Translations under genes and position numbers: made by a program
Shown: piece by piece, positions 5,748 to 22,362 of the stretch
Layout of the letters: every line of letters begins with the position of its first letter
Numbering within the stretch: position 1 is the stretch's first letter
Notes under the pieces: generated by a model
What the model saw: the letters and a program-made list of their open reading frames with translations, nothing else
Database searches by the model: none
Told to the model about the DNA's origin: nothing
From: a virus
Reading direction: 5' to 3' (one strand)
DNA: 22,362 nt
Virus record (IMG/VR): IMGVR_UViG_3300041409_000273
Coordinates: 1 to 22,362 of that record

Positions 5748-5799
5748 CAGCCCCCAAGGGGCTGTACATCTTACACAGCCCATCGAAAGGGGCATCCCC
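5748..5799 (+). promoter_or_regulatory. Leader of major tail gene with alternative hairpins
   Basis: The 69-base gap before the major tail gene holds three inverted repeats. A 7-bp stem CAGCCCC/GGGGCTG with a three-base loop spans 5748-5764. The GGGCTGT part (5759-5765) can instead pair with ACAGCCC at 5775-5781. A third hairpin GGGG-CAT-CCCC at 5789-5799 holds part of the GAAAGGGG ribosome site just before the GTG at 5800. The first two cannot form together. The first could be a weak terminator or RNA-processing signal; no U-run follows. A regulatory role is inferred from structure only. Confidence 0.4.
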
Positions 5800-6459
5800 G
5801 TGTCCGTTGAAAGCATTGCCGCGCGTCAGTCTAAGCTGATCCGCAAGGCGCTTGACGCCGTCATCCTGATCGGTCCGAACGACGCGACTCCGGTCGCCTC
5901 CATCACCGCCGGAGCCACTCGCGAGCTCGCCACTATCCCGGCCGCCTACCGCTCCCTCGGCCACCACACCGAGGACGACGGCATTAACTGGAGCCGCGAC
6001 GTCAACACCGAAGAGGTGCGCTCGCATGGTTCGCAGGAGCCCACCCGTCGGGACATCACCAGCGACGTTACCGGCCTGCACGTCATCGCCCAGGAGACCA
6101 AGGCCCTGACCCTGGAGCTCTTCCACGGCGTCGACCTCTCCGCTGTCACCCCGGCCGCGACGACCGGCGAGATCGCCTTCAATCGCGCCCGCGTCGCCAG
6201 CACCCGGTACTTCCGCCTGCTCGCGGTTTCGCAGGATGGCGAAGGCGACGACCTCCTGTACTTCGCTCGCTTCCTCCCCCGCGTCAGCATCACCGACTTC
6301 GCTGAGCAGGCTTGGACCAAGGGCACCGAGCTCCAGTACGACTTTACCTTCACCGCCTACGTCGACGGTGACTTGGGCTACGCCATGCGCGAGATGTGGG
6401 GCGGCCCCGGCATTACTGCGCTGAGCGAGGACATGGGCTTCACCACCCCCACCCCGTAA
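5800..6459 (+). CDS. Major tail (tube) protein
   Basis: This 219-residue protein should stack in hexameric rings to form the tail tube. Size, position just before the chaperone genes and a beta-rich pattern agree with the lambda gpV-like fold. Visible traits are a long loop-rich N-terminal half (ELATIPAAYRSLGHHTEDDG; SRDVNTEEVRSHGSQEPTR), the strand-helix pattern ITSDVTGLHVIAQETKALTL near residues 86-105, and LLYFARFLPRVSITDFAEQ (about residues 150-168) followed by the closing strand LQYDFTFTAYVD. It starts with GTG behind GAAAGGGG at 5785-5792. An abundant protein of this type usually has its own expression control, and the structured leader may provide it. Confidence 0.88.
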   Translation: MSVESIAARQSKLIRKALDAVILIGPNDATPVASITAGATRELATIPAAYRSLGHHTEDDGINWSRDVNTEEVRSHGSQEPTRRDITSDVTGLHVIAQETKALTLELFHGVDLSAVTPAATTGEIAFNRARVASTRYFRLLAVSQDGEGDDLLYFARFLPRVSITDFAEQAWTKGTELQYDFTFTAYVDGDLGYAMREMWGGPGITALSEDMGFTTPTP

Positions 6460-6464
6460 TTCTT

Positions 6465-6519
6465 GGTGGGGGCGCGTTTCTAGGGTGGTGACGCGCCCCC
6501 ATCTTCCCCAACCACCCTA
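6465..6519 (+). promoter_or_regulatory. Strong hairpin and possible H-type pseudoknot after major tail gene
   Basis: A perfect 10-bp inverted repeat GGGGGCGCGT (6468-6477) / ACGCGCCCCC (6491-6500) follows the major tail stop by 8 bases and extends to about 13 pairs over 6465-6503 if one G-U pair is allowed. Its 13-base loop contains TAGGGTGGT (6481-6489), which is fully complementary to ACCACCCTA at 6511-6519, just before the CTGGAG ribosome site of the next gene. This allows an H-type pseudoknot. It may be a terminator or 3' stabiliser of the tail-protein mRNA, or a control on the downstream small gene. No U-run follows, so intrinsic termination would be weak. Confidence 0.5.
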
Positions 6520-6531
6520 CCTGGAGTTCAC

Positions 6532-6765
6532 ATGCTGCACGAGATCTACGAGTCCCCCCGCGGGATCAAGGTCGTCGCCTACACGCCGGCTGAGGTCAAC
6601 GACTTCGTCAGCTGGGGTTACAAGAAGGTCGACGAGGAGCACGCTGGGGAAGCCCCCGAGGCTCCCAACCCCGAGGTGCCCAGCGCCCCCGAGGCGTCTG
6701 TCGGCAACGAGGCCCCCGTACCCACCAAGGCTGCCAAGTCGGTTCGCCCGCGCTCCGCAGAGTAA
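6532..6765 (+). CDS. Small protein with Ala/Pro/Glu-rich tail after major tail gene
   Basis: A 77-residue protein of unknown function. Residues 1-36 form a compact-looking start (MLHEIYESPRGIKVVAY, then VNDFVSWGYKKVDE); residues 37-77 are Ala, Pro, Glu and Val rich and end in a basic KAAKSVRPRSAE. Its ATG has CTGGAG 6 bases upstream. The plan resembles that of the 73-residue protein after the capsid gene (N-terminal small domain, low-complexity acidic tail, basic end). It lies between the major tail protein and tail assembly chaperone genes. Possible roles are tail decoration or assembly aid; neither is shown by the sequence. Confidence 0.75.
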   Translation: MLHEIYESPRGIKVVAYTPAEVNDFVSWGYKKVDEEHAGEAPEAPNPEVPSAPEASVGNEAPVPTKAAKSVRPRSAE

Positions 6766-6807
6766 CCCCGCTCTACCAACCACCCTAACCAGAACAGGAC
6801 ACACATC

Positions 6808-7131
6808 ATGACCAAGAAGCTTCGCGGCTGGGACTCCTACGTCGCTGACGCCAAGAAGGAGCCCCTGCTCCTCCCGCTGTCCAAGAGCGAGACCGTCACG
6901 ATCAACTTCCCCAGCAAGCGTCAGATCTCGGCCTTCAACGAGGGTCGACGGAACGGCGACATGGACGCAATGATCGTGGCTTTGCTGGGCGAAGAGGCTG
7001 GCACCCGCGTTATCGAGCTGTCCGAGGACGCTCCGTTCAGCGTGCTTGACGAACTTCTCATCGATGTTGCCGAGGAATTCGACCTCCTCATCCCCGGGGT
7101 GACCCGGCAGGGAAAAGAGGACGAGAAGTAG
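6808..7131 (+). CDS. Tail assembly chaperone, short form (gpG-like)
   Basis: This 107-residue protein is the short, in-frame product of the tail assembly chaperone locus (lambda gpG equivalent). Such chaperones bind the tape measure protein and help the tube polymerise around it, but are absent from the finished tail. The N-terminus is basic (MTKKLRGWDSYVADAKKE), the middle has PSKRQISAFNEGRRNGDM, and the C-terminus is acidic with GEEAGTRVIELSEDAPFSVLDELLIDVAEEFDL, typical of actinophage homologues. It is directly before the long tape measure gene. The ATG has an AGGA ribosome site about 10 bases upstream. A heptanucleotide slippery site lies 13 bases before its stop. Confidence 0.88.
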   Translation: MTKKLRGWDSYVADAKKEPLLLPLSKSETVTINFPSKRQISAFNEGRRNGDMDAMIVALLGEEAGTRVIELSEDAPFSVLDELLIDVAEEFDLLIPGVTRQGKEDEK

Positions 7132-7610
7132 ACCCTAACTGGGGTAACGAGCTCCAGCGCCTAACGGAGCTCATCGAAAAGTTCGGGGAGGAGATCGAGT
7201 ACGATCTCTTCGAAAAGGGTTGGGATCTTTTGGATTACTTCCGAGGATCCCGCCCTTTCTCCCAGCTTCTCCGAATAATCTCTCGCCTCCCACCGGAGTC
7301 TCACTACAAAGCCGCGTACGCGGATGACGACGAGATCGCCGAGATCCTTTTCAGTATCGGATTCGGCAAGGAAGACGGTCCACCGGGTCCCCCTCCCATC
7401 GTCGGGTACAGCTCCATTCACGCCAAGCTAGACGACATCGCCGATCAAATCGGCTCGTTCTCTACCTGGTACATGAACTCGAAAACCAACGGCAAGGCTG
7501 GCCCGTTCCGCCGCCGGCCTCGCCCCATAGGGGCCCTTCAGCGACGAGTCAAACAATCTCGCCTCGCGAAGCTAAATGACCTCGAACAGAGGCTCCTCGG
7601 AAATCGGTAG
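6808..7610 (+). CDS. Tail assembly chaperone, -1 frameshift fusion product (gpGT-like)
   Basis: A -1 shift at G-GGA-AAA joins 6808-7116 to 7116-7610 (base 7116 read twice), giving 103 + 164 = 267 residues. The second part reads RGREVDPNWGNELQRLTE directly after the slip and then LIEKFGEEIEYDLFEKGW, DYFRGSRPFSQLLRIISRLP and SHYKAAYADD, matching the pattern of downstream chaperone domains: a W near the join, helical leucines, then R-x-L-P-x-E-S. This domain recruits the tail tube protein in the lambda model. The -1 frame has no good start of its own: the TTG at 7230 would cut off the conserved helix. The extension ends 12 bases before the tape measure ATG, rich in Arg/Lys. Confidence 0.88.
7110..7116 (+). 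other. -1 ribosomal slippery site GGGAAAA
   Basis: The bases G GGA AAA in the zero frame fit the X-XXY-YYZ rule for simultaneous tRNA slippage by -1, and resemble lambda's GGGAAAG. The zero-frame stop follows at 7129-7131, and the -1 frame is open from here to 7610. Downstream lie a short ACCC/GGGT stem (7132-7135 with 7142-7145) and a 7-bp GAGCTCC/GGAGCTC stem (7149-7155 with 7166-7172). The second is about 33 bases away, farther than usual for a stimulator, so their role is uncertain. Confidence 0.88.
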
Positions 7611-7622
7611 GAAAGGTGGGCT

Positions 7623-10600
7623 ATGGCAGACTACACGGCCGGCTCCGTTGAAGTCGTAGTCATCCCATCTTTCCGCCGCTTCAAATCCGATATGGCCGCC
7701 GCCACACGGAGCCTTGGCGACCTCCCTATCAACGTCAAGGCCGATGCGGACATCTCGAAGGCCAAGGCCAAGATTGACACCCTCGCGGCGTCCAAAAATG
7801 CCGCGGTTGTGCAGGTGGACGCAGACATCGCCAAGGCTCGTGCGAAGATTGCCGAGCTCGAAAGCAGCCGCGGCACCGCCAAGATCGACGTTGACGCTGA
7901 AGTAAGCAAGGCTCAGGCTCGGATCGACGCTCTCACCGCTCGGCGAGAAGAAATCCTCGTCCGAGCGGATGCGGATACCGCGGTAGCCCAGGCCAAGATT
8001 GACGCCCTGCATGCGCGGGGCAACGGGTCCGTCACCACTAAGGTCAATCTCGACACCTCCAGCGCGGACTTCTCCCTATCTCGCCTCCAGCAGAAGATCG
8101 GGGCTATCGGCCTCGCGGGCGGACTCGGAGCGGCTCTAGCCCCAGGCGCACTCGGCGGAGCCATCGGCGGTATCGGTGCTCTCGGAGGCGCGCTTCCCGG
8201 CGTTGTCAAGGCGCTCACCACCTACAAGACCTCGCAAGACCAGGCATCCACCGCGGCAGAGGCCGGCTCTCGTTCCGCCGCGTCCATGGCCAACGCAGCT
8301 CACGCGCAGGCTGTCTCCGTACGCAATGCGTCCGACGCAATCGACACGGCTCGCCGCAACCAGGCACGCACCGCCGCGGACACGGCACGAGCTACGGCCG
8401 ATGCGGAACGCACCGTCGTAGAGGCTGAGACCCGCGTCAAGGAAGCCCACCAGGGCGTCACCGACGCCGTCAAGGAAGCTACGCAGGCCCGGCAGGATCT
8501 CGCGGATCGAGTGGCCGGCTACGCCGTCACCGAAGAGGGCGCGAGCATCTCCCTTGCCCGCGCGATTGAGCGCGAGACCAAGGTCAAAAAAGACGAGAAG
8601 GCTACTGATCTCGATCGCCGCGAGGCAGCTAACGCTGTCGCTGAGGCGCAGCAGCGCCTTGCCGATGTGCAGAAGGGTCGTGCCAAGGACACCGCCGCTC
8701 TCAACGACCTCGACAAGGCCGGGATCGAAGGCTCCAAGCAGGTAGTAGCGGCGCGTAAGCAAGAACAGCAGGCGGTAACCGCCCTGCAGTCCGCCCAGCG
8801 TAATCAGGCTGTCGTAGCGGAGACCTCCCGCCGCCAGCAAGAGGACGCGGCTATCGCGGTAGCCAAGGCCCTCCAGGGCTTGCAGGACGCGCAGTACAAG
8901 CAGGCCGAGGCGTCCGTCAGCACCACCAAGGCTGCCGACAAGTACAAGGAAGCCCTAGACAACCTCTCGCCCGCCGGACGCGCATTCGTCCTAGACCTCA
9001 TTGGGATGAAGGACGCCGGCCACCAGTTCGCGCTGACCATGCAGGGCGCGACACTCCCAGGATTCACCCGATTCTTGGACGGTGTGCACGCGTCCTCTGA
9101 CCGCCTCACCGCGGGCATGGGTGCCGTAGGAAACTCGATCTCGGACGTCGGAGATAAGGCTGGCGCGCTCTTCAAGAACCCCGTTTTCCAGGGGCGCCTT
9201 GAAGAGAGCATGAGGAACTTCGTACCGGTAGTCAATTCAGCCGGCGACGGGGTGGTAAAGCTCACCGATCGAGTCGTTACCTTCGGCGCGCAAAACGGTC
9301 AGATCATGACCTCCACCGCGGATGCGGTAGACTCCCTGTTCGGTGGTGTAGTCAAGTTCTACGACGGCCTTCAACCGCACGTAGACGGCGTATCAAAGAC
9401 AATCGAGTCTCTCGGTAAGATCACCGAGAGCATTGCCGGCGGGATCGGCGTTCTCACAGGTCAAGTCGCCTCTGGGTACGGCAGCATTGGAAACAAGGTT
9501 GCCACCACGATCGATGAGATCATCCATAGCGTTACGGACTTCACCTCGACCGCGATCCCTTCATTCGCGAGTGGCGTTGGTGTCATCACCGATGCACTCC
9601 GCATGCTCAATAGCCTTCTCAGCCCTTTTATGGGATTCCTGGGCGGGGTGGGTGGCACGATCGCCGCTAGTCTCCTGGCGTTAAAGCTGTTGTCCGGAGC
9701 AATCGGCGGTGTGGTCGGAGCTCTCTCTCGGATCAACCCCGAAAGCGTTGCCGGCAGGCTGGAGAAGTCTCGCCTCGGCAAGGCTCTCTCGGATACCGGT
9801 GATGCGGCTGACGGTGCGGAGCGCAAGGTCTCCCGAGTCTCCTCCACCTTTGGCAAGATGGGGAGCGCAGCTCTCAGCGCTTCCAAGTACATCCCGCTAC
9901 TCGGGGTCGGAATCGCTGCTGCCTCAGAAGGCTTCAGCAACGCAGCCCCGGGCGCCGATACTCTGGCGCAGAAGATCCTTCAAGGTGGCACCGCCGCCGC
10001 TGAGGCACGCGACAAGATCGCAGAGCACACCAAGGGCCTGAGCGAAGCAAGCCTCGCCAATAAGATTTTCGGTGCGTCTCAGGACGAGGTCAACGCGGAG
10101 ATCCAAAAGCAACTTGCCGCAATGACCCCGCTCGAACGGGCTCAGCAAGCCGTCACCGCCGCACGCAACGACCTCTCGCAGGCCGAATCGCGTTACGGCG
10201 CTAACTCCTTCCTTGCACAGGACGCCGCGCGCAATCTCGCCACGGCTACCACCGCGCTGAAGGACGCCCAGTGGGCGGCCGAGCAGGCCACCAAGTCGCA
10301 CGCCGACAAGATCCAGGACCTCCAGGACGCAATGCTCCGCACCGCGGGGGGTGTCCTGGGCTACCAGAGCGCGATGCAGTCGGTGAAGCAGGCTCAGACC
10401 GACCTCAGCACTGCCGTCGGTCAGTACGGCGCTACGAGCGACCAGGCTCAGGCCGCACAACTACGCTACCAGCAATCACTGTTGGACAGCGTCACCGCGG
10501 CCGGCTCCCTCTCGGATGCGCAGACTGCCGGACTAGCCCCGTCTGTCCAGCAGGCCGCGCACACCGACGCGATTAACCGCCAGTTGGTCATTCTCGCCAC

Positions 10601-13040
10601 GCAAGCCGGCGGGGTTCTCCCTCCGATCCTACAGGGCATGATCAACCAGATGGACAGCAACGCCATCGCAGCGATGGGCGCCACTGTTCGAGTCGACGAG
10701 CTCGGCAACAAGATCGTCACCATGCCTGGTGGAAAGGAACTGAAGTTCCCGACTGACGCCCCAGAATCCAAGAAGCGCATCGACGGTCTCGCGGATTCTG
10801 TGAACAAGGTCGCGGACGCTTACGGCCGATGGTTCACCAACTACATGGACATCATTAATGCCCCGGTTCTCCAGCCGGGTCAAGGTGGTGTATCCGGTGG
10901 ACTGAACCCGGGCATCCCTGGCATGGGTACTCACGCCACTGGTGGTTACATCGCGGGTCCTGGATCCGGTACGTCCGACTCCATCCCCGCGTGGCTGTCC
11001 AACGGTGAGTTCGTCGTCAACGCCAAGGCAACCGCCGCCAACCTCCCGCTTCTCCACTCGATCAACGCCCAGCGCTTCGCCAAGGGCGGTCGAGTCGGAT
11101 ACGCGGACGGTGGCGCGGTACTCGCCCCAGTCGCAACGACAACTCCCGGAGCGACGCCGGCTGCTGGACTGCCGATCACGCCTGAAGAGGCCGCTGCTCT
11201 CACCGATGCGGTCACCGTCCTCCAGGCAGCCATCACGGCACTGAACACCGTGGGGCTCGTCCCTCTCTGGAGTCAGCTCACTACCTACACGATCCCCAGT
11301 TTGCAGCTCTTCGAGCTCCACACGGGGACGCTGGCGGTACAGTCGATTCTCGCGCTCGGTGCGCAGCTCCCGCCGCTCCAAACCGGCTACACCAACACCG
11401 CGAACATCGTCACCTTCTCCTTCCAGCGCATGACGACTTCTGCGGGTCAGACGACCTCGCAGATCATGGGCTACTTTGGGACGACGCAAACGGGTCTGAG
11501 CAACGTCGGTCTCGCGTTCTCCAACACGGCTGACTGGGTTACGTCCTCGTGGGCGCGCATCCGCGCGGCCGCCGCGGACCCGGTTCGATGGGTTCTGCAG
11601 AATCCGTTCAACGCCGGCATTATCGCTGCATGGAACCAGCTTGACGCGAACTTCTCCATGGGGAAGCACGTCAACCCGATTCCAATCGGCTTTGCCACCG
11701 GTGGTTACGTCTCTGGCCCCGGGAATGGCACCTCGGATTCAATCCCGGCTCGCCTTTCCAATGGCGAGTTCGTGGTTCCCGCAGATGTCACCAAGCGCGC
11801 TCTTCCGTTCCTGGAAGCCCTGCGCCGCGGTGACGCTGAGGCATTGCAAGCCACTGGCGCTCGCGGCTATGCCACGGGTGGTCTTGTCGCGGATACCGGT
11901 TCACAGATCAACGCAGCCATCTTCCGCGCAATGCAGTTCGCCAAGGACCAGAATGGCAAGCCCTACATTTGGGGTGGAGTAGGCCCGATCGGTTACGACT
12001 GCTCTGGCTACATGTCCGCAATCACGAACGTGCTCCGGAACGAAGCCCCATACCGCCGCCTCGGCGTAGCGGCTTCCGCTCCGTGGCCCGGATTCGTTCG
12101 CGGCTTGTCCTCCGCATTTGCCATGGGCTCAAGCAGTGGCCACACTGCGGGTACTCTGAACGGCGTCAACGTCGAATCCGGCGGGTCCCACGGAAACGTG
12201 GCATTCGGCGGGCCGGCCGTAGGCGCAGATCACCCCCAGTTCCCGGTCAAGAGCAGCCTTCCCGTGGTGGGTGGGCAGTTCGTACCGGGCGGTGGAGGCG
12301 GATTCGATCCGCGCCCGATGATCCAAGCGGCTTTCGCGGACACCGGTCGCATGATCGATCGCATCCCGACACTGTTCCCTGGCAATCTGATGGGCGAGCA
12401 ATCCGGAAAGATCGCCTCGCAGGCTTCGACCAATGTCCAGAACTCTGCCACCAACCAGCTTCTCGCGGCTCTCTCCGGAGGCGCTGGCGGTGCGGCCGGC
12501 AGTCCTGAGGTCATCGCCGCGGTGCGCACGGTTGCAGCCAAATATGGCTGGAACTCCGGCCCGCAGTGGGACGCCCTCTCGCGACTGATCAGTGGCGAGT
12601 CCGGCTGGAACCCCGGAGCTGCGAATCCTACCAGCAGCGCCCGCGGCCTCTTCCAGAAGATGACGTCCGTACACGGGCCTATCGAGCCGACGCCCGGAGG
12701 TCAGGCAGAATGGGGTCTTGGCTATATCAAGGGCAAGTACGGAGATCCGATCTCCGCTTTCTCTGCCTGGGATAGCCGCTCCCCCCACTGGTACGACGAA
12801 GGTGGCGTACTTCCCCCGGGCCACGGTACGTTCTACAACGGCACCGGCAAGGAAGAGTACGTTCTTACCAACGAGCAGTGGAAGGCCGTCTACGCCGCGG
12901 CGGAGAGTAACTCCGGCTCCGGTGGGCAGTTTAGCGGCAGTCTGTACCTGGATAACGGCGCATTCCTGGGCGCAGTGTCTGGCGTAATTGAATCTCATGA
13001 CAACGCAACCGGTGACCACATGTCCCGTTACCGAGGATAG
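7623..13040 (+). CDS. Tape measure protein with NlpC/P60-like and lysozyme-like domains
   Basis: This 1805-residue protein sets tail length and leaves the tail during DNA entry. Residues 41-141 hold four tandem repeats of about 25 residues (DADISKAKAKIDTL type). A Gly/Ala-rich hydrophobic stretch at about 158-195 is followed by long Ala/Gln/Lys-rich coiled coil (about 215-450). Further hydrophobic segments lie near 665-700 and 760-780. Residues about 840-950 contain two similar A-x2-DLS-x-A-x3-YGA units. Two copies of a GPG-GTSDSIP-LSNGEFVV unit occupy 1105-1132 and 1358-1385. Then come an NlpC/P60-like peptidase domain (IWGG..YDCSGY, C1460; H1507) and a lysozyme-like transglycosylase domain (GESGWNP with E1659; SSARGLFQ). 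These would open peptidoglycan during infection. Ribosome site AAAGGTGG is upstream. Using about 1.5 angstrom per residue, tail length would be about 270 nm. Confidence 0.95.
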   Translation: MADYTAGSVEVVVIPSFRRFKSDMAAATRSLGDLPINVKADADISKAKAKIDTLAASKNAAVVQVDADIAKARAKIAELESSRGTAKIDVDAEVSKAQARIDALTARREEILVRADADTAVAQAKIDALHARGNGSVTTKVNLDTSSADFSLSRLQQKIGAIGLAGGLGAALAPGALGGAIGGIGALGGALPGVVKALTTYKTSQDQASTAAEAGSRSAASMANAAHAQAVSVRNASDAIDTARRNQARTAADTARATADAERTVVEAETRVKEAHQGVTDAVKEATQARQDLADRVAGYAVTEEGASISLARAIERETKVKKDEKATDLDRREAANAVAEAQQRLADVQKGRAKDTAALNDLDKAGIEGSKQVVAARKQEQQAVTALQSAQRNQAVVAETSRRQQEDAAIAVAKALQGLQDAQYKQAEASVSTTKAADKYKEALDNLSPAGRAFVLDLIGMKDAGHQFALTMQGATLPGFTRFLDGVHASSDRLTAGMGAVGNSISDVGDKAGALFKNPVFQGRLEESMRNFVPVVNSAGDGVVKLTDRVVTFGAQNGQIMTSTADAVDSLFGGVVKFYDGLQPHVDGVSKTIESLGKITESIAGGIGVLTGQVASGYGSIGNKVATTIDEIIHSVTDFTSTAIPSFASGVGVITDALRMLNSLLSPFMGFLGGVGGTIAASLLALKLLSGAIGGVVGALSRINPESVAGRLEKSRLGKALSDTGDAADGAERKVSRVSSTFGKMGSAALSASKYIPLLGVGIAAASEGFSNAAPGADTLAQKILQGGTAAAEARDKIAEHTKGLSEASLANKIFGASQDEVNAEIQKQLAAMTPLERAQQAVTAARNDLSQAESRYGANSFLAQDAARNLATATTALKDAQWAAEQATKSHADKIQDLQDAMLRTAGGVLGYQSAMQSVKQAQTDLSTAVGQYGATSDQAQAAQLRYQQSLLDSVTAAGSLSDAQTAGLAPSVQQAAHTDAINRQLVILATQAGGVLPPILQGMINQMDSNAIAAMGATVRVDELGNKIVTMPGGKELKFPTDAPESKKRIDGLADSVNKVADAYGRWFTNYMDIINAPVLQPGQGGVSGGLNPGIPGMGTHATGGYIAGPGSGTSDSIPAWLSNGEFVVNAKATAANLPLLHSINAQRFAKGGRVGYADGGAVLAPVATTTPGATPAAGLPITPEEAAALTDAVTVLQAAITALNTVGLVPLWSQLTTYTIPSLQLFELHTGTLAVQSILALGAQLPPLQTGYTNTANIVTFSFQRMTTSAGQTTSQIMGYFGTTQTGLSNVGLAFSNTADWVTSSWARIRAAAADPVRWVLQNPFNAGIIAAWNQLDANFSMGKHVNPIPIGFATGGYVSGPGNGTSDSIPARLSNGEFVVPADVTKRALPFLEALRRGDAEALQATGARGYATGGLVADTGSQINAAIFRAMQFAKDQNGKPYIWGGVGPIGYDCSGYMSAITNVLRNEAPYRRLGVAASAPWPGFVRGLSSAFAMGSSSGHTAGTLNGVNVESGGSHGNVAFGGPAVGADHPQFPVKSSLPVVGGQFVPGGGGGFDPRPMIQAAFADTGRMIDRIPTLFPGNLMGEQSGKIASQASTNVQNSATNQLLAALSGGAGGAAGSPEVIAAVRTVAAKYGWNSGPQWDALSRLISGESGWNPGAANPTSSARGLFQKMTSVHGPIEPTPGGQAEWGLGYIKGKYGDPISAFSAWDSRSPHWYDEGGVLPPGHGTFYNGTGKEEYVLTNEQWKAVYAAAESNSGSGGQFSGSLYLDNGAFLGAVSGVIESHDNATGDHMSRYRG
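7743..8045 (+). repeat. Four tandem 25-residue repeats at tape measure N-terminus
   Basis: Residues 41-141 of the tape measure consist of four units of 25, 25, 25 and 26 residues. Each starts D-A-(D/E)-(I/V/T) and continues with A-x-A-(K/R)-I-(D/A)-x-L, then a short linker and a strand-like end (VVQV, KIDV, ILVRA, TTKV). At DNA level the period is about 75 bases but copies have diverged, so this is an old protein repeat and not a recent DNA duplication. Similar VDAD-type repeats are known at the start of actinophage tape measures. Confidence 0.8.
10935..11018 (+). repeat. Tape measure internal repeat, copy 1 (GEFVV unit)
   Basis: Encodes a 28-residue unit, residues 1105-1132, running from ATGGYIAGPGSG through TSDSIP to LSNGEFVV. 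The second copy is at 11694-11777, with four changes in 28 residues. A more distant third unit (EGGVLPPG..GTGKEEYVLTNEQ) lies near residues 1722-1760. Comparable Gly-rich units are common in the C-terminal parts of actinophage tape measures. Confidence 0.8.
11694..11777 (+). repeat. Tape measure internal repeat, copy 2 (GEFVV unit)
   Basis: Second copy of the 28-residue unit, residues 1358-1385 (ATGGYVSGPGNG, TSDSIPARLSNGEFVV). Between the copies lies a segment of about 225 residues with predicted helices and aromatic residues. The unit ends about 75 residues before the NlpC/P60-like cysteine C1460. Confidence 0.8.
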
Positions 13041-13049
13041 GAATCGAAT

Positions 13050-13799
13050 ATGAGCTACGAATTTCGGGACGGTCAGGACTACCTGTACGGCGCGCTCGAC
13101 CAGCCGGCAGCCCTGAATGCCACTACCCTCACGTCCTCTGCTTTCGTGGAACTCCCGACGGGGTACTCCCCCGCCGCTAACGGTACGTACCTGCCGCTCG
13201 TGCTGCAGGACCCCGTTAACCGCCAGTTCGAGATCGTGTGGGTTACCGGGCATTCCACCGGGTCCAACACCGTTACCGTTGTTCGGGGCAAGCAGGGTAC
13301 GACGGCTCGCCCGTGGGGAGCCGGCTCTCAGTTTGAGAGCTCCCCCACGGTGCGGGACGTCCTGCCCGTTCTCCTCTCCACCGCTCTCCCCTCGGACGCG
13401 CACTTTGGCGCCCGGGTGGCGCGGACGGACAAGAAGGACGTTGTCGAGAAGACCCTGTACGGTTGGGGCCCCAGCGTGGGCGCGGGTCTCGCGAGTGACC
13501 AGCACAAGAACATGTCCGCGGTCGTGGTTCCGGACGGAGCTCCGATCCTTCTCCGTGCGGGCTCCAGCCCGACCACCTACACGACTTCTGCCCAGGGCAA
13601 CTTTTCCCTGGTCTACAAGACGCCGTTCCCCAACCGGACCCTCGCTATCAACGTGATCTCTACGGCGTACGCGGCCAACGGCCCGTTCGTCTTGTTCGAG
13701 CAGCGTGCGGATGGGTGTAGTCTTACCGCTCTCGACTCCGCGGGGAACCGGCTGGTCAATACCGTTATCAGCATTAACTACATCGCATTCGGCTGGTGA
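13050..13799 (+). CDS. Minor tail protein, possible fibre-type C-terminus
   Basis: A 249-residue protein behind the tape measure, where actinophages place distal tail or minor tail proteins. The N-terminal half has EIVWVTGHSTGSNTVTVVRG (residues about 66-85), then QGTTARPWGAGSQF, a pattern found in small tail-tip proteins that begin fibres. The C-terminal half (NFSLVYKTPFPNRTLAINVI... ending SINYIAFGW) resembles the gp53-like C-terminal fold of tail fibres, which often ends in I-x-W-x-A-x-G-Y; this is a weak match. The ATG has AGGA at about 9 bases, 9 bases after the tape measure stop. It is followed without a gap of more than four bases by the next minor tail gene. Confidence 0.65.
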   Translation: MSYEFRDGQDYLYGALDQPAALNATTLTSSAFVELPTGYSPAANGTYLPLVLQDPVNRQFEIVWVTGHSTGSNTVTVVRGKQGTTARPWGAGSQFESSPTVRDVLPVLLSTALPSDAHFGARVARTDKKDVVEKTLYGWGPSVGAGLASDQHKNMSAVVVPDGAPILLRAGSSPTTYTTSAQGNFSLVYKTPFPNRTLAINVISTAYAANGPFVLFEQRADGCSLTALDSAGNRLVNTVISINYIAFGW

Positions 13800-15233: not shown

Positions 15234-16340
15234 ATGTGGCCACTATCGACCCCCGCCCTGGTAGCCCTTGGCCAGTCGCACTCCGTTGCGTCTAGGGTTA
15301 CCATCTACGGGCCCACCTACGGATCCCGCACCCTCCCGATCTCCGGTGGCACCATCACCGTGGATTCGAACAGCATGGTCCGCCGCACCGGCACCATCAC
15401 GGTGGACCCGCGGCTATGGCCGAAATCTCCGACCGATCTTCTGGCGCCCTATGGCTCCGTCGTCCAGGTAGAGCGCGGCGTTGTCATCCCGGGCGTAAAG
15501 GAGCCTGAGTGGGTACCGGTGGGCCTGTTCTCCCTCGATGAGTCCTCCCGCACCCGCGACGCCGGCTCCCGCTCAGAGGTCAGCGTCAAGCTGGTCGATG
15601 CCGCGGCCCGCGTGGCTGACGACCGCTTCGACGCACCCGTACAGACAACCCGGGGAGCTACTGCCCAGTCCGAGATAATCCGCCTCGTGCGGGAGACTCT
15701 CGGCCTGAGCTACCCCGTGATCGATCTAACAACCTCCTCGACCCCCGCCGCCGTCATCGAGATCGACCGCGAGCGGTGGAAGGACGGCATCGAGAAGCTC
15801 GCCGACTCGATCGCCGCGGAGGTGTTCTTCGACCCTCAGGGAGTCCTCGTCATCCGGCCACAGCCCACTCTGGGCTCTGACTACGTATGGCAGGTCAAGA
15901 CGGGCCCGGGTGGCAACATGCTCACCCGCAAGGACGTCATGACCCGCGACAAGGTGTTCAACCGGTTCGTTGCCTCTGGGCAGCGTAGCGACGGAACGCC
16001 CCCGGTCCGCGGCGTGGCGATCGACAGCGACCCGAACAGTGCCACTCGCTACGGCGGCCCGTTCGGCAAGAAGCCTCGGTTTTACTCCTCGGCACTCCTC
16101 ACCACTGTGGCGCAGTGCGAAGAGACCGCGGCCGCCTACCTCGCACGGATCAAGGGCATCGCTGCTCAGGTAGACCTGGACGCGATTGTCAACCCCGCTC
16201 TCGACGTGGGGGACGTTATCCTGGTCGTGGACGACGGAGTCATCACTCGGCACATCATCGATCGGCTGACCATCCCTCTCGGCGCGGATGGCGTGCAGCA
16301 GATCACCACCCGTTCCGACGACCTCCCCGCGGAGTCCTGA
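15234..16340 (+). CDS. Minor tail / tail hub protein (DUF5047-type)
   Basis: A 368-residue protein with the pattern of tail hub proteins related to gp27 of T4. The N-terminal part (GPTYGSRTLPISGGTITVDS, about residues 27-46, then TITVDPRLWP) fits DUF5047. Then comes a domain with GVFSLDESS-like GLFSLDESSRTRD, a helix EIIRLVRETLG, and a second domain with RERWKDGIEKLADSIAAEVF and GVLVIRP, characteristic of the hub fold. The C-terminus (LDVGDVILVVDDGVITRHII) is a barrel-like end. The ATG at 15234 has AGGGGG at about 8 bases upstream. The order distal tail, hub, small OB protein agrees. The stop overlaps the next ATG (TGATG). Confidence 0.8.
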   Translation: MWPLSTPALVALGQSHSVASRVTIYGPTYGSRTLPISGGTITVDSNSMVRRTGTITVDPRLWPKSPTDLLAPYGSVVQVERGVVIPGVKEPEWVPVGLFSLDESSRTRDAGSRSEVSVKLVDAAARVADDRFDAPVQTTRGATAQSEIIRLVRETLGLSYPVIDLTTSSTPAAVIEIDRERWKDGIEKLADSIAAEVFFDPQGVLVIRPQPTLGSDYVWQVKTGPGGNMLTRKDVMTRDKVFNRFVASGQRSDGTPPVRGVAIDSDPNSATRYGGPFGKKPRFYSSALLTTVAQCEETAAAYLARIKGIAAQVDLDAIVNPALDVGDVILVVDDGVITRHIIDRLTIPLGADGVQQITTRSDDLPAES

Positions 16341-17006: not shown

Positions 17007-17308
17007 TGGACGATCTCATTCCCGCAATCACCGGGGGCGGAGTCGTTGGGGCAATAGCCGCGGTAATCTTGGGAATAATAAAGGCCGTTGACGTATACCG
17101 TAAGACCGGCCACACTAAAGAGACCGACATACTAGCCCAGCTCACGAACCAAACCGTATCGGCGTACGATCGCAACAAAGAGTTAGAAGCGCGCCTAGAC
17201 AAGTTGCGCGAACGGTTCGATGACGCAGTAGACCAAAACGGAAGACTCCGTCACCTCCTCTACGTCAATCGCATCGAGATCCCTCCCGAACTTGGGGACA
17301 CACCATGA
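17006..17308 (+). CDS. Membrane protein with coiled coil, possible holin partner
   Basis: A 100-residue protein with an N-terminal transmembrane helix (TGGGVVGAIAAVILGIIKAV, about residues 9-28) followed by a charged helical region with heptad-like leucines (ELEARLDKLRERFDDAVDQNG, residues about 59-79) and a short tail. This arrangement resembles small phage membrane proteins beside endolysins, sometimes annotated as holins. No family is certain. It starts in the TAATG overlap with the four-helix protein and ends in an ATGA overlap with the next gene, indicating coupled translation of three membrane genes. Confidence 0.72.
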   Translation: MDDLIPAITGGGVVGAIAAVILGIIKAVDVYRKTGHTKETDILAQLTNQTVSAYDRNKELEARLDKLRERFDDAVDQNGRLRHLLYVNRIEIPPELGDTP

Positions 17309-18057
17309 GCACCACCGAGCCCGCAACCCAAGAGCTGATAGACCGGTACAACAAAGCGGTCAGCGCTCGTAGGCGAGGCAAGTGGTTGAATATTTGCATA
17401 GCTGTGTTCGTTGCTATCACCCTCTCCGCTTTCGTCGTCTCCTTCTTTGTAACGCAGGCCGTAAGCGAGGCAACCAGCGCGAACACCGCTGCGTTGTCCT
17501 CGCTACGCCAAGATCTCAAGACGGTTTGTCGCCAAGCCGATGCGAACAAGCTCCCGACGCCAGAGCAGGACAAGTGCTTCCGCGCGGAGGCGAATCTCCC
17601 TCCCCAATCGGCACCGAGCACCCAGGCCACTCCGAGTCAGCCGGAAGTCAGTAACGATCAGCTCCTCACGCTCATTCGCGGTGTGCTCGCCACCCATCCC
17701 CCGCAGGACGGGCACACCCCCACAGCCGAAGAACTTCTGGCCCTCATCCGTCCCTTAATTCCGGCGCCGGTAGCGGGCAAGGATGGGACTCCGGGGGCTA
17801 CGCCTACAGACGAACAACTTCTCCGATTGATCCGGAGTGTCTATAACGAAAACCCGCCGGCAGACGGTAAGGACGGAGCCCCTGGGGCTACAGGCGCCAC
17901 TGGCCCCACCGGCCGCGGGATCACATCCCTGACGTTCAAGAGCTCTGGGGGTTCTTGCACTGGTGTGGTGACCTACACCGATGGCGCGCAGGACACATTC
18001 CCGGCCGGCGACGCTGCTTGTCCCGGCTCCACTCCGACGACATCCCCCACCGAATAA
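17305..18057 (+). CDS. Single-span membrane protein with collagen-like and LL-x-LIR repeats
   Basis: A 250-residue protein with a basic short N-terminus, one strong transmembrane helix at about 27-49 (LNICIAVFVAITLSAFVVSFF) and a large outside part. After a Gln/Pro/Thr-rich linker, a short motif occurs three times: LLTLIR (L120), LLALIR (L144) and LLRLIR (L172), each followed by a Pro-rich PPxDG-type turn. GKDGTPGATP and then six collagen-like Gly-x-y triplets from G188 follow. The C-terminal domain (ITSLTFKSSGGSCTGVVTY...AACPG) has two cysteines that could form a disulphide. The ATGA overlap with the previous gene, and the endolysin 10 bases downstream, place it in the lysis unit. Function unknown: it could be surface-exposed or a periplasmic lysis factor; that is inference. 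Confidence 0.8.
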   Translation: MSTTEPATQELIDRYNKAVSARRRGKWLNICIAVFVAITLSAFVVSFFVTQAVSEATSANTAALSSLRQDLKTVCRQADANKLPTPEQDKCFRAEANLPPQSAPSTQATPSQPEVSNDQLLTLIRGVLATHPPQDGHTPTAEELLALIRPLIPAPVAGKDGTPGATPTDEQLLRLIRSVYNENPPADGKDGAPGATGATGPTGRGITSLTFKSSGGSCTGVVTYTDGAQDTFPAGDAACPGSTPTTSPTE

Positions 18058-18067
18058 GAGGCAGCTA

Positions 18068-19012
18068 ATGGCTCGCGGCATAGACATCTACGCAGCGTAT
18101 CAGAGAGTTACGGATTGGAATGCACTCCGCAACCACGTAAGCTTCATGTACGTTAAGCTCACCGACGGCGGCGGCCGTGCCACTACCGACAGCAGCCACC
18201 TCGTCGCTGGCGCGAAGAGCGTCGGGATCCCGGTGGGCGGCTACCACTACGCGCAGTTCTCCCCTTCCCCCGAGGCTCAGGCGAACGTCTTCATCGACTG
18301 GGTGAAGCGTACCAGGGCGACCGACCTCGTCCCGATGCTGGACCTTGAGGCGCCCTTTACCCCCAACGGCACCGCTCGGGACTTCGGCATCCGATTCTGT
18401 CGTAGAGTGGCCGCTCTCGGGTTCAAGCCGGGCGTCTACATGTCCGACTCCTTCGCCCGCGGCGTCCGCCCGGACCAGTGGGACACGAACCCCGTAATCT
18501 GGATTGCGCGCTACGGCGCCAAGCCGGCTTACGGCGGCCGGTACGACATCCACCAGTACAGTAGCTCCGGGCAGGTTCCGGGTATTGCTGCGAGCGGTGT
18601 GGACATGAACGAGTCGTACACAAACAATCACTTCCTCAAAGCTGGAGATGCAGACATGCCCCTGAACAACGACGACAAGGCTTCGATCGATGCCATTGTC
18701 CGCGAGGCTATCTACGGGCGTAGTGGCTCGTGGTACAACCCCCGCTTCCGCAACAACGAGAACTATGCTCAGGTCATTCACGCAATTGCCGCTGACGCTG
18801 CCGCCACTCGTCAGCTCATGCTGACTAGCTCTTCGGCTTCCGCTCAGGAGATCGCCGAAGCCCTTAAGCCGGGTCTTGCGTCCGCCGTCCTCCCCCTCGT
18901 GCAGGACGCGGTTCGTCAGGCGCTGGGTTCGGACAACGCTGCTCAGGCAGACGAGATCTCCAACCGAGTCGTTGACCTCTTGGGTCAGCGGATTGTAAAT
19001 CCGACTGCATGA
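18068..19012 (+). CDS. Endolysin, GH25 lysozyme (N-acetylmuramidase)
   Basis: This 314-residue endolysin cuts the beta-1,4 bond between N-acetylmuramic acid and N-acetylglucosamine in host peptidoglycan at the end of infection. Residues 1-190 are a GH25 domain: GIDIYAAYQ (D6), FMYVKLTDGGG near 28-38, GIPVGGYHYAQF near 54-65, the catalytic pair D92-L-E94 in MLDLEAPF, and D179 in GVDMNES. The usual TEG-type motif is here TDG. Residues 197-314 form a helical C-terminal domain beginning MPLNNDDKASIDAIV, known from actinophage endolysins and probably for wall binding or multimerisation. The frame opens earlier at 17981, inside the previous gene; the ATG at 18068 has AGAGGCAG upstream. No signal peptide is present, so export needs a holin. 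Confidence 0.92.
   Translation: MARGIDIYAAYQRVTDWNALRNHVSFMYVKLTDGGGRATTDSSHLVAGAKSVGIPVGGYHYAQFSPSPEAQANVFIDWVKRTRATDLVPMLDLEAPFTPNGTARDFGIRFCRRVAALGFKPGVYMSDSFARGVRPDQWDTNPVIWIARYGAKPAYGGRYDIHQYSSSGQVPGIAASGVDMNESYTNNHFLKAGDADMPLNNDDKASIDAIVREAIYGRSGSWYNPRFRNNENYAQVIHAIAADAAATRQLMLTSSSASAQEIAEALKPGLASAVLPLVQDAVRQALGSDNAAQADEISNRVVDLLGQRIVNPTA
18656..19012 (+). CDS. Possible internal translation start in endolysin (C-terminal domain alone)
   Basis: An in-frame ATG at codon 197 lies exactly at the start of the C-terminal domain and has GGAG at 18644-18647, 8 bases upstream, as good as many true sites here. Translation from it would give a separate 118-residue protein with the same C-terminal domain. 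Internal starts of this kind are known in other endolysins, where the small product joins the full-length enzyme. In this phage it is only a prediction. Confidence 0.4.
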   Translation: MPLNNDDKASIDAIVREAIYGRSGSWYNPRFRNNENYAQVIHAIAADAAATRQLMLTSSSASAQEIAEALKPGLASAVLPLVQDAVRQALGSDNAAQADEISNRVVDLLGQRIVNPTA

Positions 19013-19277: not shown

Positions 19278-19317
19278 ACCACCCCCATCTTAGCATTCAA
19301 TAAAAGGAGTGTGGCCC

Positions 19318-20499
19318 ATGGCGTTACCAGCCGACCTAGGGCAAGTCGACGTCATCGGCACCTACGTAACCTACAACGGCCGACCCGTTACCGGAGTCGT
19401 GGAATTCACCGCCGCTACTCGCGTCGTTTCCAGCGCCACCCACACCGCCGTTCTCCCTGAAAAGGTGATCGGCACCCTCGACTCCACTGGCGCCCTCAAA
19501 GCCGAAGACGGCACTGCGACGCTCAAGCTCCTGGCCACGGACGACGCAGACGGCACTCCTGTCGGCTGGACCTGGGTGGTCACCGAGAAGTTCACCAACG
19601 CCACGGGTCGCGCTCCGTTCAATCTTGCCACCCCCCTCGCGAGCTCGCCGGTAGACCTCCCCTCCGCAGCTCCCGATACTCCCGCCGTCGTACCCGGCAT
19701 CACGGCAGTCACCCGTGTCAACAACAAGCTCCCGAACGCCAGCGGATTCGTCACTCTGGTCCCCTCGGATATCGCCAGCACCTTCCCCTCCAGCCCTCAT
19801 ACGCACCCGACCTCGGATGTTACGGGCCTCTCCGCGGCTCTCAGCGCTAAGGAAACCGCTGGCGCAGCCTCGGCCGCCGTGTCCGCCCACGAAGCAGCCG
19901 GCGATCCGCACCCGCAGTACAACACCACGGCCGAGGGCGACGCTCGCTACTCCCCCATCGCGCACTCGCACCCAATCGCGGGCGTGACGGGCCTCCAGGC
20001 AGCTCTGGACAGCAAGGAAGCATCCGGCGCCGCAAGCTCCGCTCTCTCCGCCCACCTGGCCACCTCAGACCCCCACCCGCAGTACCTCACCGCGACGGAG
20101 ACAAACGGCCTCTACGCCCCGGTCGCCCACTCGCACAACTCGGCGGACATCTTCGGGACCCCCCACACTGCGCAGTTCTTCAGCACGGGGGTGGCCGCGG
20201 TAAAGACTGGCACCTTCCCCTGGTACAACGACACCGGCCGAACGCTGGTGATCAAGTCGGTCCGCGCCTCGGTGGGCATCGCACCCAGCGGGTCATCCCT
20301 CACGATCACGGTCGCGAAGAACGGCGCCACGCTCTCCGGAGTAAACGCCTCGATCAGTGCTAACACCCGCACCGCGAAGCAGACCGTCGCGGATGTGCCG
20401 GTTGCGGATGGCGACTACCTCACGATCAACATCACGGCAATCGGCTCCACCACCCCCGGCACCGATCTCGCTGTTCAGATTACTTTGGCAGGTGCGTAA
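19318..20499 (+). CDS. Tail fibre / minor tail protein with HxH repeats
   Basis: A 393-residue fibre-type protein. Residues 1-115 are a beta-rich N-terminal domain (VIGTYVTYNGRPVTGVVEFT). From H161 two exact-length repeats of 55 residues occur, each starting H-x-H-P, then VTGL-x-AAL-x-KE, SAH...DPHPQY and ending at a Y-(S/A)-P-(I/V)-A, followed by a third HSH. Such HxH units can coordinate metal along a trimeric fibre. The C-terminus (TGVAAVKTGTFPWYNDTG, VGIAPSGSSLTITVAKNG, GSTTPGTDLAVQI) is the common phage fibre-end domain. The ATG at 19318 has AAAAGGAG 8 bases upstream; a GTG at 19309 overlaps that site and is rejected. The stop overlaps the next ATG (TAATG), so the two fibre genes are probably co-translated. 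Confidence 0.85.
   Translation: MALPADLGQVDVIGTYVTYNGRPVTGVVEFTAATRVVSSATHTAVLPEKVIGTLDSTGALKAEDGTATLKLLATDDADGTPVGWTWVVTEKFTNATGRAPFNLATPLASSPVDLPSAAPDTPAVVPGITAVTRVNNKLPNASGFVTLVPSDIASTFPSSPHTHPTSDVTGLSAALSAKETAGAASAAVSAHEAAGDPHPQYNTTAEGDARYSPIAHSHPIAGVTGLQAALDSKEASGAASSALSAHLATSDPHPQYLTATETNGLYAPVAHSHNSADIFGTPHTAQFFSTGVAAVKTGTFPWYNDTGRTLVIKSVRASVGIAPSGSSLTITVAKNGATLSGVNASISANTRTAKQTVADVPVADGDYLTINITAIGSTTPGTDLAVQITLAGA
19798..20127 (+). repeat. Two 165-base coding repeats (55-residue fibre unit)
   Basis: Two tandem units, 19798-19962 and 19963-20127, encode 55 residues each with no length change; a partial third starts at 20128. Shared residues include H1, H3, V8-T9-G10-L11, A13-A14-L15, K18-E19, S29-A30-H31, D36-P37-H38-P39-Q40-Y41 and Y51. 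The DNA is similar but clearly diverged. Confidence 0.85.
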
Positions 20500-22362
20500 T
20501 GGCGTCGGTGGTCGGCACTACCCCCACAACCCAGGTCACGACCGCCGTCACCACCACGGGGACCGCCCTTACGCTCGCGAAGCCCACGGCCCTCGCGGAT
20601 GGGCACTACATGGTGGCGGTTGTCAACAACTCGAACAGCGCGCAGACTTTCACCGCCCCGTTCGGATGGACCGAGCTCGCCCACCTCGACCTCGGACGAA
20701 ACTTCCGGATCTTCGGTAGGTACGTCCTCACCGCGGCGGACGAGGTTGCGACAAGCTACACCTTCACCGCCAGCGTGGGGGGCCGGAATGCCGGCGTCCT
20801 GTTCCTGGTGTCCGGCGTCAGCTCGGCTAATCCGTTAGACGTGGCCTCGTACTCTACGACGACTACAGCCGCTACGGGTCTCCAGGTTCCCTCTCAGACC
20901 CCCACCGCCGGCAACGACGTCCTCGTCTACGCCGCGGTGGCGTTCCACAACGCTGGAGCGGTCACGTTCACGGCGCCCGCCGGCATGACCCTTGCCGCTC
21001 AGGTGGCAACCGCCACTACCGGCAGCACGTCCAGCATTGCGGTGGCCACGCAGGGCCTCAATACCCCGCCGGCCGCGACAGGCGTCAAGGAGTCCACCGC
21101 CACGCCGGCAGCTTCCGGCGGCCAGACGGCTTTCATGATCACGCTACGGGACGGCTCCTACACTCCGCCGCCTCCCGAGGTGCACGCGCTGATCCTCGGA
21201 GCTCCGGCTCCGAACACCTTTCGAGGAAGCGCGCACATCACCAACGCCACCAGCGCAGCGATCGTGGTATCAACGAGTGCCGATCTGTCGTCCCCGACCA
21301 CGGGCCCGACGGCCACCGTCGACTCCCGCGGGTACGCGCAGATGACGGCCCCGACGTCCCTCCTCCCAAACACCTCGTACTACTGGGGTGTCAAGCTGGA
21401 CACGACCGTGATGACCTCTCTCATCGGCACGGTTCGTACACTGCCGGCCGAGGGTGCCGCATCGTCATTCTCGTTCCTCGCGGCGAGCTGCGCACGGACG
21501 AACTCCAACCAACCCGTCTTCGACTCGATGCGCCAGCGCACGGGCGTCACGGGCAGCCGCGCAGCGTTCTACGCCATGCTCGGGGACATGCATTACGGGG
21601 ACCTTGCCGACAACGGCAACGCTACGCTTGACGCTAACTACAGTCTGTACCAGACCTCCGTGTTCGGACAGCCTCGTCAGGCTCAGTTCTACCGGGAAAT
21701 CCCCCTCGTCTACATGCCGTCGGATCACGACTTCGGTGGCTCCAACGCAGACAAGAACAATCCCAACGGGCCGTTCTTCCAGCAAGCGTACCGCGGAATC
21801 TTCCCGCACTACGACCTAGTCCCAGACACCAACGGAGACGGAGCCGGCGTTTACCACAGCTTCGGAGTGGGCCGAGTTCTGTTCATCGTCACCGACGGCC
21901 GAAGCTACATGTCTAGTCCGCTAGACACCGACGGTCCGGCCAAGACAAAGCTCGGAGCTACGCAGAAGCAGTGGCTCAAGGATCAACTAGTGCGTACCGA
22001 CTACCCCGTGAAAATCTGGTTCCACGAGGATGGTTGGAATAACGCCAGCACCTGGGAGCCGGCCACGCCGACTAACAGCGCCGCGGATGACACCTGGTCT
22101 GGGTACAACACCGAGCGGTTCGAGATCGGTAACTTCATCCAGGAAAATGGCGTCAACATGTGGTACGTGCATGGTGATTTCCATGCACTCGCCGCGGACA
22201 CGGGTGTAAACAACATCTGGGGCGGATTCCCGCTCGTGTGCTGCAGTCCGATCGACCAGACCACCTACGCCGGCAACGGCGTGTGGTCCGAAGGATACTA
22301 CCCGAACCCCTCATCGAGCACGACGTTCACCCAGCAGTACGGGTGGTTCGACGTCATCGACA
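20499..22362 (+). CDS. Tail-associated protein with PhoD-like metallophosphatase domain, 3' end missing
   Basis: An open frame runs from the ATG in the TAATG overlap to the window end (621 residues, incomplete). Residues 1-225 form a beta-rich domain common in phage tail proteins (AGPFGWT-like APFGWTELAH, LFLVSGVSSANPLDV, FTAPAGMTLA). Residues about 228-322 are a fibronectin-like domain ending SYYWGVKLD...GTVRTLPAEG, as in PhoD enzymes. The catalytic part follows: SFLAASCAR (C331), MLGDMHYGD (D363, H365, D368), PSDHDFGG (D409, H410, D411), TKLGATQKQWL, FHEDGWNN (H509) and HGDFHA (H558, D560, H562). These match the PhoD-type metal-binding set, so the domain looks active. PhoD enzymes cut phosphomono- or diesters, including teichoic acids. 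Here it could degrade a host surface polymer during adsorption. No secretion signal is present, as expected for a virion protein. Confidence 0.85.
   Translation, partial: MASVVGTTPTTQVTTAVTTTGTALTLAKPTALADGHYMVAVVNNSNSAQTFTAPFGWTELAHLDLGRNFRIFGRYVLTAADEVATSYTFTASVGGRNAGVLFLVSGVSSANPLDVASYSTTTTAATGLQVPSQTPTAGNDVLVYAAVAFHNAGAVTFTAPAGMTLAAQVATATTGSTSSIAVATQGLNTPPAATGVKESTATPAASGGQTAFMITLRDGSYTPPPPEVHALILGAPAPNTFRGSAHITNATSAAIVVSTSADLSSPTTGPTATVDSRGYAQMTAPTSLLPNTSYYWGVKLDTTVMTSLIGTVRTLPAEGAASSFSFLAASCARTNSNQPVFDSMRQRTGVTGSRAAFYAMLGDMHYGDLADNGNATLDANYSLYQTSVFGQPRQAQFYREIPLVYMPSDHDFGGSNADKNNPNGPFFQQAYRGIFPHYDLVPDTNGDGAGVYHSFGVGRVLFIVTDGRSYMSSPLDTDGPAKTKLGATQKQWLKDQLVRTDYPVKIWFHEDGWNNASTWEPATPTNSAADDTWSGYNTERFEIGNFIQENGVNMWYVHGDFHALAADTGVNNIWGGFPLVCCSPIDQTTYAGNGVWSEGYYPNPSSSTTFTQQYGWFDVID

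Follow-up and report, generated by a model that had tools for sequence, protein, structure and literature searches.

A PhoD-like gene at the end of a phage tail module

The window analyzed here is the whole of IMG/VR virus record IMGVR_UViG_3300041409_000273, a stretch of 22,362 bases, and its tape measure, hub, endolysin, fiber and phoD-like genes lie on the plus strand. Its tail module contains a tape measure protein (7623..13040, assigned by PHROG) and a DUF5047 tail hub protein (15234..16340, assigned by Pfam, PHROG and relatives), and a GH25 endolysin (17981..19012, Pfam and PHROG) lies upstream of a fiber-PhoD gene pair. In this pair, a tail fiber gene (19309..20499) with a phiC31 gp49-like N-terminus, phage tail repeats and a C-terminal tip domain (phrog_27064) sits directly upstream of a predicted PhoD-like virion phosphoesterase gene (20499..22361), and the TAA of the former shares bases with the ATG of the latter (TAATG). 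The phoD-like gene opens the last frame of the window at ATG 20499 and is still open at the contig end (22361), which cuts its 3' portion after 621 visible residues. The complete homologue in its nearest relative, L038 (virus contig IMGVR_UViG_3300048995_000011, reached via a search with the window hub protein), has 671 residues, suggesting that about 40-50 C-terminal residues are missing from the window protein. The third codon position of the gene is GC-rich, like that of the rest of the window genes. The major capsid protein scores 47% to that of Streptomyces phage Samy, and the hub protein has relatives in phages of Gordonia, Streptomyces, Brevibacterium and Rhodococcus; the host is probably an actinobacterium.

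The tape measure protein also matches NlpC/P60 (residues 1445-1467) and SLT (residues 1640-1682) weakly, contains a stretch assigned to phrog_971 'endolysin', and may build a peptidoglycan-cutting activity into the tail. A protein encoded at 17305-18057, with small membrane proteins on one side and the endolysin on the other, starts with a single membrane-type segment, continues in collagen-like GxY repeats and has no Pfam or PHROG match. A tail-fiber-like protein (13050-13799) with a sub-threshold Gp53-like C-terminal match lies between the tape measure and the hub.

Family assignment and domain organization

An earlier note on this DNA had read the last gene as a phage domain joined to a PhoD-type region and had proposed a search against the Pfam PhoD family. 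PF09423 matches residues 392-567 (E 2.8e-13) at 50.1 bits, above the curated cut-off of 27, and the L038 protein scores 57 bits against the same profile. The PHROG 13624 'hydrolase' profile spans residues 8-621 of the window protein (E 8.7e-114), and the sole match in a PDB sequence search is B. subtilis PhoD (2YEQ). Together with the open frame and the predicted fold, these matches bear out the general reading of the gene, whereas some details of its domains and motifs are revised below. Megablast with the full window sequence recovered no phage DNA resembling it, and the window protein used as a direct query against viral contigs gave zero matches; relatives among viral contigs were recovered by an alignment-based scan. 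Family members are already annotated as hydrolases, phosphatases or purple acid phosphatases (PAPs), and the window gene belongs to this known but poorly understood phage PhoD-like family.

In an AlphaFold2 model built from the window protein and 20 relatives (pLDDT 85), residues 225-621 superpose on B. subtilis PhoD (2YEQ) over 368 residues at 3.0 A (Z 31.7) and on plant PAPs at a Z of about 27, and are thus predicted to adopt a PhoD/PAP fold. The protein begins with a two-sheet beta domain of phage type (residues 1-224; 20499..21170; model and fold search), continues with a PhoD/PAP-type N-terminal beta domain (residues 225-320; 21171..21458; 2YEQ alignment and weak profile scores) and ends in the PhoD-type metallophosphoesterase core (residues 321-621; 21459..22361; PF09423, model and alignment). 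The middle stretch had been described as a separate fibronectin-like domain. Because the 2YEQ alignment starts at residue 225, it is better regarded as PhoD's own N-terminal domain, the standard beta domain of PhoD and PAPs, and relatives score weakly to PhoD_N / Pur_ac_phosph_N.

The claim of a phage domain at the N-terminus is supported, in the sense of a virion-type domain. Modeled separately, residues 1-224 form a distinct domain (pLDDT 89, pTM 0.89), and its fold matches many phage proteins in BFVD; these include minor tail proteins from three mycobacteriophages (Hawkeye, Shauna1 and PP) and from Gordonia phage Beyoncage. Microbacterium phage ValentiniPuff has the same fold in a GDPD protein. 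Against PDB folds the best match of this domain reaches Z 6.4, within the noise range, with the phage Tuc2009 baseplate among the matches, and tblastn with residues 1-224 finds Streptomyces PhoD proteins only. Some relatives carry the domain in two copies (L012, L021 and L049), and others have a different domain in its place (L015 and L022). Unlike exported PhoD, nearly all members lack a strongly hydrophobic N-terminal stretch. The C-terminal '...GDTQVWP' was considered as a virion anchor and dropped: outside PhoD homologues it gives only weak matches (E 0.06-0.8) to mycobacteriophage and Gordonia proteins, some called minor tail, and a 'GWGxPL' ending on another protein of Streptomyces phage Tomas was not seen in the stretches covered (50-66 kb left out).

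A retained iron site and an altered calcium site

Rodriguez et al. 2014 (PMC4223295) report that one iron ion and two calcium ions are bound by PhoD. Its activity is abolished by C180A, D265A, N271A, N272A and D436A and strongly reduced by D207A and D266A, and Cys or Asp at the iron position marks two recognized PhoD subfamilies (PMC4223295). When 31 phage homologues are aligned to PhoD, the window protein is seen to retain C331, D363, Y366, D409, D560 and H562, all but D409 belonging to the tyrosinate-iron site (Cys or Asp, GDxxY, DxH). Cys331 (21489..21491) corresponds to the iron ligand Cys180, Asp363-Tyr366 of the GDxxY motif (21585..21596) to Asp207/Tyr210, and Asp560-x-His562 (22176..22184) to Asp436/His438, which provide a metal bridge and an iron ligand. 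These iron-site residues are conserved over the 31 homologues, the exceptions being Cys to Asp changes in L028 and Thermobifida phage P1312.

The calcium site has diverged. Within the motif SDHDFGGSN (residues 408-416; 21720..21746), Ser408 occupies the position of PhoD Asp265, Asp409 and His410 correspond to Asp266 and His267, and the Asn271/272 pair is represented by a single asparagine, N416, near Asn272. The window protein is therefore classed by its fold with PF09423 but not with the B. subtilis-type three-metal enzymes, as the two-calcium set (Asp265, Asp266, Asn271, Asn272) is incomplete. It also lacks the PAP second-metal set (His2Asp1Asn1; PMC4223295), with Asp409 and Asp560 occupying the PAP Asn and His positions and H509 not conserved in L038. 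Serine at the Asp265 position is common to the 14-row subclade of the window and most of a second clade in the tree described below, and is thus not an error of one sequence. The sampled bacterial-genome rows keep the Asp265 equivalent; the prophage-like Actinomadura loci L049 and L050 are set apart from those rows.

These results overturn the earlier statement that all visible metal motifs (GDMHYGD, SDHDFG, HED and GDFHA) are kept. Besides the serine and the halved asparagine pair, the HED motif is not conserved: His509 (22023..22025) is Gly in L038 and lies opposite Gln in PhoD, and so is not a family metal ligand. The comparison with PhoD that the note had suggested supports the fold in the model, and in the alignment the iron site but not an intact calcium site; because calcium-site ligands are altered, catalytic activity of the window protein cannot be assumed. 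A two-metal site might nonetheless be restored with the help of N416 and D411, which are conserved.

Relatives and their genomic context

Using tblastn, we identified 63 phage records, comprising 31 Streptomyces phages, 28 Microbacterium phages, three cyanophages and Thermobifida phage P1312. The PhoD protein of L038 is 58% identical to that of the window and agrees with it in domains, in its place behind a matching fiber gene with the same gene order, and in the serine at the Asp265 position, whereas it differs in being complete and in having Gly at the equivalents of H509 and H365. In the window and in L038 alike, the phoD-like gene lies in the tail/structural module. The fiber-tip domain (phrog_27064) precedes PhoD in L038 as well, and is immediately upstream of it in L012 and in the Actinomadura loci L049 and L050. 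No PhoD was found by tblastn in the other hub-sharing relatives of the window phage, and in L042 no fiber-PhoD pair was seen behind the endolysin; the pair consequently looks like an accessory cassette.

Homologues are found in structural modules of about a dozen diverse phages. The gene order in L015 is tape measure, Dit, Tal, a 492-aa protein, PhoD, a 97-aa protein and endolysin, while L022 has a baseplate wedge and a minor tail protein upstream of PhoD. Head, portal, connector or tail genes lie nearby in L018, L019, L021, L024, L025, L027, L028, L029 and L031, and in Microbacterium phages Hortus1, Dashyla and Phinky the phoD-like gene sits amid head/tail structural genes. In L019 (8395-10842), the PhoD domain is joined C-terminally to DUF6093 (PF19586, E 6.7e-32), with a head-tail adaptor gene in the locus. 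A tail position is not certain for every homologue, as some are flanked by capsid and connector genes. In the 31 Streptomyces phage records (BE-type, e.g. Tomas), the gene, where examined, sits in a group of tRNA genes at a long distance from the tail module.

Some loci carry further phosphate-related or duplicated genes. Phage contigs L019, L024 and L026 each contain two PhoD-like paralogues, close together in structural regions. Microbacterium phage A3Wally (L007 1-7884) encodes, in a region of about 9 kb, the phosphoesterase-annotated gp231, gp236 and gp238 together with gp239, a 5' nucleotidase. In P1312 (L003 12966-13961), a glycerophosphate-transferase-like gene lies a few genes past PhoD, a possible teichoic-acid link according to the P1312 authors.

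Phylogeny and selection

In a tree of 49 rows, rooted for drawing only, 38 mostly phage rows split from 11 cellular rows with support of 100/99. Four bacterial contigs assembled from metagenomes (L051, L052, L054 and L055) are placed among the phage rows. The phage-associated clade appears to stand apart from most sampled cellular PhoD. Between the window and L038, the catalytic core is 75% identical, with a dN of about 0.21 and a dS of about 1.7, the latter near saturation; identity in the N-terminal domain is 41%. These sequence comparisons indicate purifying selection on the catalytic core.

Virion evidence and published record

The homologue in Nostoc phage YongM shares 35% identity across the core with the window protein. 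This 'alkaline phosphatase D family protein' (5775..7658) was detected by LC-MS/MS with a score of 1132 and 35% coverage, ranking 7 among 32 proteins in the company of those of the capsid, sheath, tube, collar and fiber, whereas DNA polymerase scored 19 (PMC8875764). The sample was amplified, concentrated phage, the purity of which is not fully described, and the authors placed the protein under DNA metabolism (PMC8875764). In P1312, ORF22 was not detected in virions, and several other tail proteins were likewise missed (PMC4569894). For the window protein itself, we infer a location on the virion, and this inference is well supported.

Within the collection of papers that our survey covered, nothing relevant on PhoD in phage tails turned up beyond the P1312, YongM, Rowlf and auxiliary metabolic gene (AMG) papers. 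The teichoic-acid idea is not new, since such cleavage was put forward for the P1312 phosphodiesterase in 2015 (PMC4569894), and a 2024 study interpreted soil-phage phoD genes as serving phosphate acquisition (PMC10987575). What is added here is the combined case for a place on the virion, the corrections to domains and motifs, and the altered calcium site of the window subclade.

Proposed role and alternatives

We consider it probable that the window protein is a virion enzyme of a siphovirus-like actinophage, a PhoD-family phosphoesterase that cuts phosphate esters on the host surface. The protein would be carried on the particle, most likely near the tail fiber, where its N-terminal beta domain may serve in attachment or recognition and its PhoD-family core would hydrolyze phosphate esters in a host-surface molecule. 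With an actinobacterial host, the likeliest target would be a teichoic-acid-type glycopolymer, and cutting it might clear or release the receptor, allowing the tail to reach peptidoglycan and membrane. The earlier proposal of a phage tail enzyme acting on a phosphate-containing glycopolymer is thereby partly sustained by the PhoD fold, the virion-type domain, the place behind the fiber, the conserved structural placement of homologues and the YongM mass spectrometry. A reading confined to teichoic acid does not stand as well: the altered calcium site and the occurrence of the family in cyanophages weaken a simple 'teichoic acid depolymerase'. To our knowledge, the Gram-negative-type cyanobacterial hosts of YongM and Anabaena phage Elbi lack wall teichoic acid, which argues against wall teichoic acid as the single common substrate of the PhoD-like family.

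The damage to the calcium site raises an unlikely alternative, in which the protein is a receptor-binding virion protein whose PhoD-like fold is weakened or dead and which binds a phosphate-bearing ligand without cutting it. Serine at a ligand essential in PhoD, shared across the window subclade and most of the second clade, would suit such a protein, as would the replacement of His410 by Asn in Streptomyces members and by Thr or Cys in some Microbacterium members. Yet the protein keeps its iron ligands, Asp409 and the DxH pair, its catalytic core is better conserved than the rest of it and under purifying selection, and N416 and D411 offer a possible route to a rebuilt two-metal site, all of which favors cutting over binding alone.

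We regard as distinctly improbable a role as an AMG, in which an exported phosphatase would free phosphate from organic compounds for host or phage during infection. Soil-phage phoD genes have been classed as phosphorus-acquisition genes and one product, PhoD22, hydrolyzed pNPP (PMC10987575). A PhoD-like phosphatase is also listed among the virus AMGs of Atacama soil, and the Streptomyces BE phages carry their copy away from the structural module. Against this, the start of the window protein has no export-signal-like stretch, a virion-type domain is fused to the PhoD core, late structural-gene context recurs in many diverse phages, and the YongM homologue scored 1132 in the phage preparation against 19 for DNA polymerase. 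Very improbable, finally, is a phospholipase D-like activity directed at the host membrane during DNA entry or release, for while Streptomyces chromofuscus phospholipase D is in the PhoD family (PMC4223295) and a membrane target would suit actinobacterial and cyanobacterial hosts both, no membrane-binding feature was seen in the window protein and fusion to a surface-binding domain better fits outer-wall targets.

Extending the virion-enzyme reading from the window protein to its family, we tentatively suggest that the phage-specific PhoD-like clade might comprise interchangeable virion surface enzymes of siphoviruses, myoviruses and podoviruses, that a large subclade including the window gene might work with a metal site that has been rebuilt (Asp265 to Ser), and that many published phage 'phoD' AMGs might really be virion enzymes. 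Studies of soil viromes now include phage phoD genes in their tally of phosphorus-cycling genes; should many of these genes encode virion enzymes, the ecological claims based on that tally need re-reading.

Comparison with known systems

GDPD-type tail phosphodiesterases are known in Firmicutes phages. Those of enterococcal phage tails, a functional analogue, and of the Lactobacillus phage Ld17 baseplate resemble the proposed action of the window protein in being tail phosphodiesterases thought to cut teichoic acids, but belong to an unrelated enzyme family. If PhoD-type enzymes are their counterpart in phages of actinobacteria and cyanobacteria, the means by which phages enter cells would include a second enzyme class, one with unusual iron chemistry.

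Among PhoD-type proteins, the PHROG 13624 'hydrolases' of Streptomyces phages such as Tomas, Jay2Jay and Samisti12 share 37% identity with the window protein over residues 34-621, covering the N-terminal and catalytic domains, as well as the SDxD motif; they differ in having Asn in place of His410 and in the location of their gene, a tRNA array outside the tail module. The ORF22 phosphodiesterase of Thermobifida phage P1312 (PMC4569894) likewise places a PhoD core in a tail module, but has the canonical DDHD calcium motif, Asp for Cys at the iron site and a C-terminal CBM. The alkaline phosphatase D proteins of Nostoc phage YongM and Anabaena phage Elbi share the PhoD core, and their gene adjoins a capsid fiber gene, whereas they retain the canonical DDHD, lack the N-terminal domain, carry another C-terminal domain and come from phages of cyanobacterial hosts. 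B. subtilis PhoD (2YEQ) shares the fold and the iron site with the window protein, but is an exported cellular enzyme with a C-terminal cap helix and both calcium sites complete.
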